IMG/VR virus record: IMGVR_UViG_3300021197_000369
Coordinates: 1 to 58,810 of that record
Length of the DNA: 58,810 nt
Origin: a virus
Direction: 5' to 3' (one strand)
Part shown: piece after piece, positions 16,041 through 43,170 of the stretch
How positions within the stretch are numbered: the stretch's first letter is position 1
Layout: each line of letters begins with the position of its first letter
Translations under genes and position numbers: made by a program
Notes under the pieces: model-generated
Database searches by the model: none
What the model was told of the DNA's origin: nothing
Seen by the model: only the letters and a program-made list of their open reading frames with translations

Positions 16041-16529
16041 TTATGCTGTTGGTGAATCAGATGAAATACCAAAGAATTTCAATGACAACTGACCACCAGC
16101 ACCTGCTGTGCCTGAAATAGTTACTTCAACCTCATCGGCGGTTTCCGTGGCTACTTGACCAGCAGCAAATCCAGACATACCCAACACACCATTACAACCA
16201 AAGAAACCTTTAAAACCTGCTGCATTGATCGCTGTTGTAGGAAGTCCGTCAACAAAACCATCTGGGTCTGCGTCTGTGCCAATATCAACAAGATTCACGT
16301 TATTAGCAGCAGCCGTTACAACCGTAACCGCTACGCCCATAGGTATAAAGTTTGAAGGTATAGCGATGGATGCTTCTTTATGAGCCGTACCTGAAGCAGC
16401 AATATCAATTGTTGCTGTGTAGGTTGACAGAGCCATCTCGTTAGTCAAAGCACCTGTGGTGCTGTTCTTGATAATGTTTTTAAAACCGTTTTCGGAACGG
16501 ACGGGACCGCTGAAAGTAGTATTAGCCAT
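16041..16529 (-). CDS. Capsid-proximal structural protein
   Basis: This 162-residue protein begins MANTTFSGPVRSENGFKNI, a start found in many marine phage structural proteins. It continues with a beta-rich region (STYTATIDIAASGTAHKEAS, IPSNFIPMGVAVTVVTAAAN) and ends GGQLSLKFFGI. It is the first gene after the terminator downstream of the capsid gene. A head decoration or fibre-base protein is likely. Direct evidence is lacking. Confidence 0.6.
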   Translation of the reverse strand: MANTTFSGPVRSENGFKNIIKNSTTGALTNEMALSTYTATIDIAASGTAHKEASIAIPSNFIPMGVAVTVVTAAANNVNLVDIGTDADPDGFVDGLPTTAINAAGFKGFFGCNGVLGMSGFAAGQVATETADEVEVTISGTAGAGGQLSLKFFGISSDSPTA

Positions 16530-16586
16530 TTAGATCTCCTGTCTTGGCTAGTGTCAGCCGCCCCATGCGACTGTCAGGAATGCTGT

Positions 16587-16645: not shown

Positions 16646-17557
16646 TTAGGCTCCGGGTGAACCGAAGATACAACGTGGGTCTGAGAAGCCGAAGCTATAA
16701 CGCTCACGAGCCTTATAACGCATGTTACCAGTGTCGAAATCTGGATCCATTGCAGTTGTAAGAGCAGCACGTTCAAAGTGCTTGAGTCCGTTAGGTGCAT
16801 CGGTCTTGATGAAGAATGCATCTGTGTCGGTCAAGTAGTCGTTGACTACATAACCTTCAGGTAACATGCCCATTGACTTGAGCGCATTCACATCGTTGTC
16901 GGCTGTACCTACCCGTAGGTTTGATACAAGCAAACGCTCTGCAATAAATTGCAGTTGACGTGGAATGATCAGCTTCACACCGCGAAGCGCGATGATAAGG
17001 CCACGCTCATCAACGAAACCAGCAATGCTGATCAAAGAGTCTTCCAAAGAAGTCTCGTTCAAGTCAGCAGCAGTGGATGGCTCGTTGTTGAATGTGCCAC
17101 CTGATGTCAGCGGGTGTGATGCATCACAAAGAGCAACACCGTCACCACCAGCGAATGCGCCAGCCGTGAATGCATTGTTCAGGATTGATGCAGCTTTAAC
17201 CTGCTTTGTGTGTGCCATAGAACGTGCGAGTGCACGAGTATAGCGAGATGCTAGACGATCATAAAGATTGTCTTCAACAGCTTCTTCAGTAATTGAAAAG
17301 GCCATAGCCACTGTCTCGTGGTTGTAACGAGCAGTGTATGCTTCCTGTGCATCGTCGAAAGATACACCTGAACCTTCACCTTTCACTGGAGCCGCGCCGA
17401 AGCCAGACAGCATTACCTCTTCTTCAAACGCCCGATCCGATGTCTCGGTGTCAAAGATCTCAGCATGCTGACCTTCGTAACGTCCATATTCCATACCAAA
17501 GAGAGCGTTTAGACCCGGCTCTAATTCTTTGGCGAGTTGTGCTCTAGAAATAGCCAT
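16646..17557 (-). CDS. Major capsid protein
   Basis: This 303-residue protein has an N-terminal helix (ISRAQLAKELEPGLNALFGM) and an E-loop-like region (GFGAAPVKGEGSGVSFDDAQ). It also has HETVAMAFSITEEAVEDNLY, a spine helix (SRYTRALARSMAHTKQVKAA) and the C-terminal KARERYSFGFSDPRCIFG. This matches a marine phage HK97-fold capsid family. It follows the scaffold and a further structural gene, and a terminator follows it, as expected for the most abundant virion protein. No cleaved prodomain is evident, in keeping with a separate scaffold. Confidence 0.85.
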   Translation of the reverse strand: MAISRAQLAKELEPGLNALFGMEYGRYEGQHAEIFDTETSDRAFEEEVMLSGFGAAPVKGEGSGVSFDDAQEAYTARYNHETVAMAFSITEEAVEDNLYDRLASRYTRALARSMAHTKQVKAASILNNAFTAGAFAGGDGVALCDASHPLTSGGTFNNEPSTAADLNETSLEDSLISIAGFVDERGLIIALRGVKLIIPRQLQFIAERLLVSNLRVGTADNDVNALKSMGMLPEGYVVNDYLTDTDAFFIKTDAPNGLKHFERAALTTAMDPDFDTGNMRYKARERYSFGFSDPRCIFGSPGA

Positions 17558-39914: not shown

Positions 39915-40067
39915 GTGGATACAGATAAATGGAAATCAGTTGCGGTTTCAATTGACATCTACAAAATGCTAAAGGCTATGGCAAAAGCCAGCGACAGAAG
40001 TTTAAGCAAACAAGTCGCACACATTGTTAAGAAAGAATATCAAGCAGGTGATAAATTATCCGCTTGA
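39915..40067 (+). CDS. Ribbon-helix-helix regulator
   Basis: This 50-residue protein (GTG start, CAGGAG five bases away) is VDTDKWKSVAVSIDIYKMLK, AMAKASDRSLSKQVAHIVKK and EYQAGDKLSA. A short beta strand (KSVAVSI), helix A (DIYKMLKAMAKAS) and helix B (SLSKQVAHIVKKEY) match the ribbon-helix-helix fold of small transcription regulators. It lies between a palindromic gap and a strong promoter for the replication genes, so it may repress both. Confidence 0.7.
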   Translation: MDTDKWKSVAVSIDIYKMLKAMAKASDRSLSKQVAHIVKKEYQAGDKLSA

Positions 40068-40091
40068 CACGGTGGTCACAATATATATGAT
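40064..40091 (+). promoter_or_regulatory. Strong sigma-70-like promoter for the replication genes
   Basis: TTGACA (40064-40069) overlaps the stop of the regulator gene, followed by 16 bases and TATGAT (40086-40091). It precedes the 40139 gene by 47 bases. Confidence 0.7.
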
Positions 40092-40709: not shown

Positions 40710-41510
40710 ATGCCCGATACAGCAGTAGTAGAAAAAAAGTCCACGGCAGTGGCAAATGTAATGGATGACTTGTACGCGAGTGCAGGTGAAGGTCTTGAGA
40801 ATGTAGGTGCAGAAGATATGCAGATCCCGTTTCTGCGGATTCTGCAACCGTTGTCTCCGCAGTTGAATAAGCAGGACTCTAAGCACATTAAAGGTGCTTC
40901 AGGTGGTGACTTGTTCAATACGGTGACGGGTCAGTTATGGGATTCTGAAGAGGGGGTCAGTGTGATTCCTTGCGCGTACCAAATGAAGTATCTGGAGTTC
41001 CAGCTACGCGAAAATGGTGGCGGCTTTATGGGTGAGTTGGATCCGAATAGTCCTGACATCCGTAGTACAGAGCGTAATGGTGCTAACGAGATGCTACCGT
41101 CCGGTAACGAGCTTGTGCGGTCAGCGCAGTTCTTGGTGCTGGCTTTCGGTGACGACGGCATACCGCAGCAAATGATCTGTGATATGAAGAAGACTCAGAT
41201 GAAGATTGCCAAGCAGTGGAATACCAGACGCGCTGGCATGAAGCTGGTGCACCCAGAGAAGGGTTTGTTTACGCCACCAATGTGGGCAACTGTCTGGAAG
41301 CTGACCTCTGTGCAGGAGAGCAACGACAAAGGTTCGTGGTTCAACTATCAAATAGCGCAGGGCGATGTGAAGGAAGTGTCCAGCGATATTTTGGTGCAGG
41401 CGCGTGACTTGTATAACCAGTTTAAGAAGGGTGAGATTAAGACAGCCGCAGGCACGGCTGAAGAGATGAATCATACCGCACCAGATGAAGGAGATGAAAT
41501 ACCGTTTTAA
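40710..41510 (+). CDS. Putative ssDNA-binding protein
   Basis: This 266-residue protein has a beta-rich core with IPFLRILQPLSPQLNKQDSK, PCAYQMKYLEFQLRENGGGF and LVLAFGDDGIPQQMICDM, and a helical tail. The very end is PDEGDEIPF. An acidic tail closing in D-x-x-IPF is the hallmark of ssDNA-binding proteins, which use it to recruit partners. The first 250 residues match no standard OB-fold that I can identify by eye, so this is a functional guess. It stands directly before the primase. Confidence 0.6.
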   Translation: MPDTAVVEKKSTAVANVMDDLYASAGEGLENVGAEDMQIPFLRILQPLSPQLNKQDSKHIKGASGGDLFNTVTGQLWDSEEGVSVIPCAYQMKYLEFQLRENGGGFMGELDPNSPDIRSTERNGANEMLPSGNELVRSAQFLVLAFGDDGIPQQMICDMKKTQMKIAKQWNTRRAGMKLVHPEKGLFTPPMWATVWKLTSVQESNDKGSWFNYQIAQGDVKEVSSDILVQARDLYNQFKKGEIKTAAGTAEEMNHTAPDEGDEIPF

Positions 41511-41610
41511 TCGCGGGTGGTTTTGGGCGTAGCCGGGGGCTGCGTACAAGGTTGATTGGTCCCGCGACAGGTCACACTCTGACCTGAGTTTGCTAATCAA
41601 CCACCCCCGC
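41511..41610 (+). ncRNA. Candidate structured leader RNA with pseudoknot
   Basis: Four helices are visible. P1: TCGCGGG (41511-41517) with CCCGCGA (41561-41567). P2: CGTAGCC (41528) with GGCTGCG (41538), including G-T. P3: CAGGTCA (41568) with TGACCTG (41580). Pseudoknot: GGTTGATT (41550-41557) with AATCAACC (41595-41602). GGGTGGTT (41515) can instead pair with AACCACCC (41599-41606), and this excludes the pseudoknot. It ends 25 bases before the primase ATG. It may be a regulatory leader or a small RNA; the known ribozymes I checked do not fit. Confidence 0.5.
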
Positions 41611-41634
41611 TCTAAACCAACATGGAGCGATCCA

Positions 41635-43170
41635 ATGAACATAGACGAACGGTTTATGGCTGCGTTTGAGGGCTTTGACGCAGCACATGGACAGACACAG
41701 ATATCGAATGAACGAAGGGCTGGTAAACAGAAAGCTAAGTCGTACATCGTAAGAAAGCCACTGACATTAGATTTGATTCGTGAACACTTACAGGGGTTGA
41801 ATGGTGTTGGATCTATTCCTATTAACGAGCACAACAAGTGCAAATTTGGCGCTCTTGATATTGATCAGTATCCTTTGGATCTGGTGGCAATAGACAAGAA
41901 ACTGCGCGATATGGAAGTGCCCTGCATTGTATGCAGGAGCAAGTCCGGCGGTGCTCACATATTCTTTTTCTTCAATGACTGGATCAGCGCAGGAGAGTTG
42001 CGTGACAAAGCATCAGAGATTGCTGCCTATCTTGGGTACGGTGGCTGCGAAATATTTCCGAAGCAGGAGCAAATTCTTGTCGAGCGTGGTGATGTTGGGA
42101 ACTTTATTAATCTTCCGTACTTTGATTCGGAACAGACGCTCCGCTTCGCGGTTGACGAAGATGGTGAGCCAGCATCGTTAGAAAGATTCCTTGAACTCGT
42201 CTCTGCCCGATCTGTAGACCCAAATGTTTTTGTTGGTTTGACATTTGGTGAACAGGTTGACGAGTTCGTTGAGTGGTCTCCCTGCCTGAACTGTATGTTT
42301 GGGCAGGGGATTCCAGAGGGCACACGCAATACAGTTATGTTTGCAGCAGCAGTTGCCTGTAAGAAGGAACAGCCAGACAACTGGCGGCAACGGCTAGAAG
42401 AAATCAACATGAAGTATTGCACTCCGCCGCTACCAGCTACGGAGATTGTTACCATACAGCAGCAGCATGAGAAGAAAGAGTATGGCTTTCCGTGTGATCA
42501 GGAGCCGCTCAAATCCTTTTGCAACAAGAGCCTGTGCAAGACAAAAAAGTTTGGCATCGGATCCAACATAACAAGCGTAGAGGTCACGGGTCTGTGTGTT
42601 GTCAAATCAGAGCCGCCTGTGTGGTTTTGTGATGTGGGCGGTAAGCGAGTGGAGTTAACGACAGATGACCTACAGACACCACAACGTTTTCAAAAAGCAT
42701 GCATGGAACAGATACACATCATGCCACCAATGATGAAGATGGCTGATTGGCAGGTCATTGTATCTATGATGATGGAAGATATGAGTGAGATCGAAGTGCC
42801 GGAAGAACTGACATACAAAGGTCAGTTCATGGATCTGCTTGAAGCATTCTGTGACGGCAGGGTACAGGCGCAGTCAGCCGAAGAGCTAGCACTGGGCAAG
42901 CCGTTCACTGATGACGAAGAGGGCAGGACATTCTTCAAGCTTGAAGCATTAATCAAGTATCTACGCAACAACAAGTTTGACAGCTACAGTCGTGGTCAAA
43001 TACAGGAACGTCTGAAAGAATTAAACATCGATGGTACAGCCAATGGACAAAAAAGATTCAACACAAGCAGGGGTGACACCAAGCCTATGCGCGTGTGGTG
43101 GGTGCCGTCGTTTAGCACCGAGGTCCAAGTACCAAGGATCGATGTCGGGGAGAACGAGGTGCCCTTCTAA
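41635..43170 (+). CDS. TOTE-type / AEP primase
   Basis: This 511-residue protein starts at MNIDERFMAAFEGFDAAHG (GGAG upstream). The archaeo-eukaryotic primase core has GALDIDQYPLD (Asp75 and Asp77), CRSKSGGAHIFFFF (His108) and CEIFPKQ (about 138-144), as in the TOTE conflict primase family. Residues about 270-310 carry CDQEPLKSFCNKSLCKTKKF, which may bind zinc or Fe-S. The C-terminal half is helical and ends VGENEVPF, again an acidic tip like that of the preceding protein. It makes primers for the DNA polymerase encoded downstream. Confidence 0.8.
   Translation: MNIDERFMAAFEGFDAAHGQTQISNERRAGKQKAKSYIVRKPLTLDLIREHLQGLNGVGSIPINEHNKCKFGALDIDQYPLDLVAIDKKLRDMEVPCIVCRSKSGGAHIFFFFNDWISAGELRDKASEIAAYLGYGGCEIFPKQEQILVERGDVGNFINLPYFDSEQTLRFAVDEDGEPASLERFLELVSARSVDPNVFVGLTFGEQVDEFVEWSPCLNCMFGQGIPEGTRNTVMFAAAVACKKEQPDNWRQRLEEINMKYCTPPLPATEIVTIQQQHEKKEYGFPCDQEPLKSFCNKSLCKTKKFGIGSNITSVEVTGLCVVKSEPPVWFCDVGGKRVELTTDDLQTPQRFQKACMEQIHIMPPMMKMADWQVIVSMMMEDMSEIEVPEELTYKGQFMDLLEAFCDGRVQAQSAEELALGKPFTDDEEGRTFFKLEALIKYLRNNKFDSYSRGQIQERLKELNIDGTANGQKRFNTSRGDTKPMRVWWVPSFSTEVQVPRIDVGENEVPF

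Follow-up and report, generated by a model that had tools for sequence, protein, structure and literature searches.

The window analyzed here is the whole 58,810-base virus record IMGVR_UViG_3300021197_000369. In this record a gene resembling Pam3_gp34 is followed by a primase gene, and the leader described below is the 124 nt gap between the two (Table 1). A strong sigma-70-like promoter match (11/12) was found just upstream of the DUF7307-gp34-primase genes. IMG/VR searches with the primase and gp34 yielded about 250 relative loci (L numbers), many of which share contigs. The leader is hosted mostly by marine phages, and among relatives whose primases are at least 69% identical the gp34-primase gap ranges from 32 to 226 nt. 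Relatives of the primase were also seen in bacterial MAG contigs (L254-L304) from many phyla, including SAR202, Maricaulis and Verrucomicrobia; these are probably binned phage contigs.

Table 1. Features of the gp34-primase leader, its flanking genes and two further elements in the window.
Feature	Position	Strand	Evidence or remark
Sigma-70-like promoter match	40064-40091	+	
Upstream gene, Pam3_gp34-like (PF23977)	40710-41510	+	C-terminal tip DEIPF, the sole basis for calling it SSB-like
P1 5' strand TCGCGGG	41511-41517	+	Begins directly after gp34 stop; topology score, strand swaps, covariation
P3 5' strand GCGUAG	41527-41532	+	Topology score, covariation
P3 loop strand CGGGGG, Shine-Dalgarno-like; 5' strand of second pseudoknot	41534-41539	+	Topology score, covariation
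P3 3' strand CUGCGU	41540-41545	+	Topology score, covariation
P2 5' strand GGUUGAUUGGU	41550-41560	+	Topology score, strand swaps, covariation
P1 3' strand CCCGCGA	41561-41567	+	Topology score, strand swaps, covariation
P4 hairpin CAGGTCA/TGACCTG, variable in length and sequence	41568-41586	+	
P2 3' strand GCUAAUCAACC	41592-41602	+	Topology score, strand swaps, covariation
3' strand of second pseudoknot CCCCCG, C-rich, potential anti-Shine-Dalgarno	41604-41609	+	
Candidate Shine-Dalgarno-sequestering hairpin CGCUCUA (41608-41614) / UGGAGCG (41623-41629), loop with AACCAAC	41608-41629	+	Predicted; covariation weak overall
Shine-Dalgarno GGAG, AUG 7 nt downstream	41624-41627	+	
Primase (AEP-TOTE, PF22548; PHROG 21866 primase)	41635-43170	+	Start ATG at 41635
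Start-codon hairpin AUGAAC (41635-41640) / GUUUAU (41652-41657)	41635-41658	+	Synonymous-codon constraint; predicted fold
Mu-gpT-DE RNA (Rfam RF03012)	16527-16579	-	71 bits; adjoins major head protein gene 16646-17557

The leader RNA almost certainly contains a double pseudoknot. The P1 and P2 helices cross, which produces the first pseudoknot, and the loop of P3 pairs with a C-rich strand ending 14 nt before the Shine-Dalgarno, which produces the second. In all families the strands follow the order P1, P3, loop, P3', P2, P1', P4, P2', and loop partner. The initial annotation had described a compact 100-nt pseudoknot at 41511-41610, built from P1, an inner hairpin, the hairpin CAGGTCA/TGACCTG and the P2 pair GGTTGATT/AATCAACC. 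All of these pairings exist there, and the pseudoknot is supported by both topology and covariation; however, P2 extends to 11 bp, the element is longer than first noted (about 41511-41660) and the second pseudoknot had been overlooked. The presence of a pseudoknotted RNA just 5' of the primase ribosome-binding site is thus strongly supported.

About 30 distinct leaders share the double-pseudoknot topology. They fall in three deep clades of the primase tree, on both sides of its midpoint root, and this distribution needs at least five or six changes. Leader L238 and a new family (L317/L331) match the topology by eye, with small bulges. In each of seven representatives, the pseudoknotted topology outscored all 200 dinucleotide shuffles. 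The nested minimum free energy (MFE) of -51.3 kcal/mol (z = -4.4) was reached by 0 of 200 shuffles; the MFE fold includes an outer stem between the 5' strand and the 3' C-rich strand, which forms only weakly beyond the window clade.

Further evidence was obtained from an alignment of 15 related sequences (A1), which contains 30 pairs and 440 cells. In A1, 98.0% of the 440 cells are paired compared with 85.2% in shuffles, and pairing falls to 37-53% once the partner is shifted by 1-3 columns. Half of the pairs (15/30) changed on both sides, giving 66 double-change cells, and the covariation score was 0.468 against 0.222 in shuffles; these counts come from related sequences and do not represent independent events. 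Four of five measures beat all 500 shuffles, the exception being the pair-type count. Moreover, P1 and P2 do not survive an exchange of strands among ten families (matched versus mismatched values of 19.9 and 11.0 for P1, 22.2 and 9.0 for P2, and 13.8 and 9.3 for P3). The second pseudoknot is nearly invariant, with an A-U to C-G change in the window clade and a G-C to A-U change in two sequences; its loop strand reads CAGGGGG in relatives versus CGGGGG in the window. The covariation check proposed at the outset therefore left the structure standing, as helix bases vary among relatives with compensation. Outside the helices, the AAG before P2 and the A after it are invariant in A1, and the AA is lost in the L096 and L237 types. 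Among the leaders compared, no conserved unpaired core clearly points to a ligand pocket.

The same data bear on which molecule is under selection. Because the element adjoins a primase gene, it might be thought to act as a single-stranded DNA structure in replication, either as an origin or as a primase site. However, within families Watson-Crick pairs change to G-U eight times and to A-C not once, and therefore the selected molecule is the + strand RNA. The helices also lie on the coding strand and are tied to the Shine-Dalgarno and the start-codon hairpin, which leaves a role as DNA with hardly any probability.

The strand order raises the question of a self-cleaving ribozyme. The initial annotation had noted that the order P1, inner hairpin, P1', hairpin, and downstream strand recalls HDV-like folds, but doubted the resemblance. 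A nested double pseudoknot that opens with P1 is indeed common to the leader and to HDV-like ribozymes, including the theta ribozymes of phages, and a chance GCUAA lies near the expected junction. However, the HDV order is P1, P2, P3, P3', P1', P4, and P2', whereas the P2 5' strand of the leader comes after P3 rather than before it. Relatives keep no junction cytosine of the catalytic kind, the A1 sequences differ in both the length and the sequence of the junction, P1 is absent in L018 and L023, and no HDV-family match was obtained in Rfam even at E-values up to 10. The doubt was well placed, and HDV-like self-cleavage is extremely improbable.

A transcription terminator or attenuator between gp34 and the primase is also quite unlikely, albeit slightly less so. 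In its favor, U5-U7 runs occur after the C-rich strand of the L069/L153/L159 clade, and in the distantly related L249 and L139 U-rich stretches come after hairpins. Conversely, the window leader (41511-41634) carries neither a U-run nor a terminator-like site, and the same holds for most families. In the L069, L153, L159, and L081 leaders, the C-rich strand followed by U5-U7 has a terminator-like appearance in which a pseudoknot helix replaces the hairpin stem.

It was originally suggested that GGGTGGTT competes with GGTTGATT as a regulatory switch. The competing pairing GGGTGGTT/AACCACCC is present (8 bp, within repeat I1), but only the window, L002, and L003 form it strongly, with GGGTGGTT pairing with the P2'/C-rich strand at about -14 kcal/mol. 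In L159 the corresponding alternative amounts to -10.6 kcal/mol, and the eight remaining representatives range from -6.5 to +1.3. Since the pairing energy is not kept beyond the window and its nearest relatives, the GGGTGGTT/GGTTGATT switch is not a conserved mechanism. The broader idea of regulation fares better, as a translational role is the best explanation of the leader even though this specific switch is not conserved.

A conserved candidate for competition was instead found between the P3 loop and the Shine-Dalgarno, both of which can pair with the C-rich strand. In a nested-folding model with upstream bases blocked, the probability that the Shine-Dalgarno is unpaired is 0.06-0.30 across all 10 families when the second pseudoknot is present, and 0.00-0.04 when its 3' strand is free. 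Covariation does not demonstrate that the C-rich strand sequesters the Shine-Dalgarno: the signal is weak, and matched and mismatched hairpins differ little (-9.8 versus -9.1 kcal/mol). Any C-rich strand can be expected to pair with a G-rich Shine-Dalgarno. The window GGAGCG gives -9.7 with its own leader versus -3.2 to -6.2 with leaders from outside the window clade. In several families the sequestering hairpin and the second pseudoknot barely overlap and could coexist. A compositional bias was detected in 73 leaders, among them many unrelated sequences; in 72 of the 73 the strongest helix near the Shine-Dalgarno has a G-rich 5' arm and a C-rich 3' arm.

Downstream of the leader, the first codons of the primase enclose the start codon in a separate conserved hairpin. 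Nearly all relatives pair AUGANC with GUUCAU within codons 1-8, irrespective of the leader that precedes them. Codon 6 ends in G in 119 of 119 sequences, and where it encodes arginine it is CGG or AGG in 98 of 98 cases, whereas elsewhere 28% of arginine codons end in G. At codon 7, UUC is used in 116/119, while at codon 11 nearby UUU is used in 118/119. The window carries the weaker UUU variant at codon 7, and the hairpin is weak there; it is strong in relatives, reaching up to 13 bp in L237.

The architecture of the leader is far from fixed. In nearly all relatives a stable hairpin or pseudoknot lies between gp34 and the primase, and its form varies freely. Simplified leaders consist of P3, the second pseudoknot, and P2, with P1 missing altogether (L018, L023), or of P3 and the second pseudoknot alone (L008). 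The 32-nt leader of L149 contains just the Shine-Dalgarno hairpin, other relatives have plain hairpins, and plain hairpins are also found at this position in more distant phages. In L036 (3783-4000) and L040 (3818-4000), close relatives of L030, 120-156 nt of extra structured sequence lies within the loop of a short leader hairpin.

Whole leaders are exchanged as cassettes between phages with 97-99% identity in the flanking genes, and the leader stays base-paired. A primase identity of at least 95% and a gp34 identity of at least 93% are shared by 103 pairs, of which 21 have leaders that are less than 60% identical; the pairs are not independent and reflect about four or five exchange events. 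The clearest case is that of L073 and L076, whose flanks are 98-99% identical and whose leaders are unrelated (131 versus 226 nt). In L076 the 226-nt leader replaces that of its near twin from the gp34 stop to the region of the primase start. A leader with 96.5% identity to it occurs in L048, a locus whose flanking genes differ strongly and whose gp34 is just 61% identical at the DNA level. It is strongly structured (L076 and L048, 3775-4000) and has no Rfam match, and a search for the insert elsewhere returned the same three contigs only.

One reading is that the fold is a spacer for differential expression, which would protect the upstream message against exonucleases at its 3' end and throttle the primase without any sensing. 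Such protection has a precedent in the REP hairpins of malE-malF. The stop codon of gp34 ends at 41510 and the structure starts at the very next base, a stable fold occupies this site in nearly all relatives while its architecture is free to change, and plain hairpins serve more distant phages. However, this reading leaves unexplained the orientation of G-rich and C-rich arms (72/73), the conserved start-codon hairpin, and the double pseudoknot kept across three clades. It is a possible account, though clearly not the favored one.

The main role of the leader is more likely than not cis-acting control of primase translation initiation in a polycistronic message. In the proposed mechanism, the G-rich P3 loop would mimic a Shine-Dalgarno. 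While the double pseudoknot is held, the C-rich strand would be occupied and the Shine-Dalgarno partly free; if the pseudoknot opens, the C-rich strand could pair with the Shine-Dalgarno and block initiation. The balance might be tipped by a replication protein of the phage or by ribosomes that terminate at the gp34 stop codon next to P1; alternatively, there may be no trigger, and the leader may act as a fixed low setting. Based on the gp34-primase position and the precedent of T4 gene 32, a replication protein is the natural candidate. No elaborate sensor is needed, since many close relatives have a simple hairpin or, like L149, almost nothing.

A more specific form of translational control is a protein operator, in which the primase or the gp34 product binds the pseudoknot and the start-codon hairpin and represses primase translation. 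As this is a sub-case, the likelihoods expressed here for the different readings are not meant to sum to one. T4 gp32 and gp43 are known to repress translation of their own messages. The leader sits in an operon between gp34 and the primase, the start codon lies within a conserved hairpin, and the DD(E/D)IPF tip of gp34 resembles the acidic tail of SSB. However, the SSB identity is unproven and rests on this tail, as a PDB structure search with the predicted gp34 model (pLDDT 78) returned zero significant fold matches. T4 gp32 regulates the gene that encodes it, but the RNA described here is located 3' of gp34. Unrelated leaders before 99% identical primases also argue against an operator, since a sequence-specific repressor would not tolerate them. 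Conversely, the gene 32 operators of T4 and RB69 contain leader pseudoknots that differ in sequence and are nevertheless bound (PMC535899), which would allow rapid leader turnover under such control. Taken together, a protein operator is rather unlikely, a little more so than the spacer.

Cis-acting control of primase translation can be compared with several known systems. As with the T4 gene 32 operator, the leader lies in a phage replication cluster and places a pseudoknot ahead of a replication gene's ribosome-binding site; the leader sequence diverges between relatives, and the leader can be absent in some. The T4 operator, which regulates gene 32 itself, is a single pseudoknot of ~28 nt located about 67 nt before the start and followed by unstructured UUAAA repeats. 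In contrast, the leader described here precedes the primase and combines a double pseudoknot of 100 nt with the P3 and P4 hairpins. Its structure extends to the start codon, and unstructured A+U-rich repeats of the T4 type are absent between its pseudoknot and the start. The enterobacterial type I toxin mRNA timP also adopts mutually exclusive conformations, of which the translatable one needs a pseudoknot (PMC11228461), but it differs in gene, topology, and organism and is controlled by an antisense RNA. The manA (RF01745) and wcaG (RF01761) motifs are structured leaders associated with marine phages and are candidate cis-regulators, and the STAXI motif (RF01728) has pseudoknots near genes of DNA-binding proteins including Ssb. 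However, manA and wcaG precede other genes, and the present leader shows little conserved unpaired sequence; STAXI is a tandemly repeated motif of Enterobacteriales in which UUCG loops are frequent, and the leader does not match it.

Searches of Rfam 15, at the gathering score and at E-values up to 10, returned no relevant match for the leader and no riboswitch or leader family, and a nucleotide search of isolated phages left it unmatched. No second copies of the element were found with model R1 in 34 sources. In a collection-wide pattern scan, 23 of 24 matches fell between gp34 and the primase, and the remaining one (L323) looks like chance. The leader is therefore a well-supported new structured RNA without an Rfam 15 family; its general kind is that of phage translational leaders, among which its architecture and mobility are unusual. 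A bolder proposal is that it represents a translational switch of a new class, which would use a Shine-Dalgarno-mimicking loop in a double pseudoknot, sense how phage replication is proceeding (through a replication protein or through ribosomes that leave the upstream gene), and circulate between phages as a leader cassette under selection for diversity; this is conceivable, though the odds are well against it. The finding adds a second, larger, and unrelated example of a pseudoknotted leader in a phage replication operon, with natural variants that extend from a plain hairpin to the double pseudoknot. Moreover, natural leader swaps between near-identical phages amount to a ready-made mutant series, so that the switch hypothesis is testable with existing sequences.
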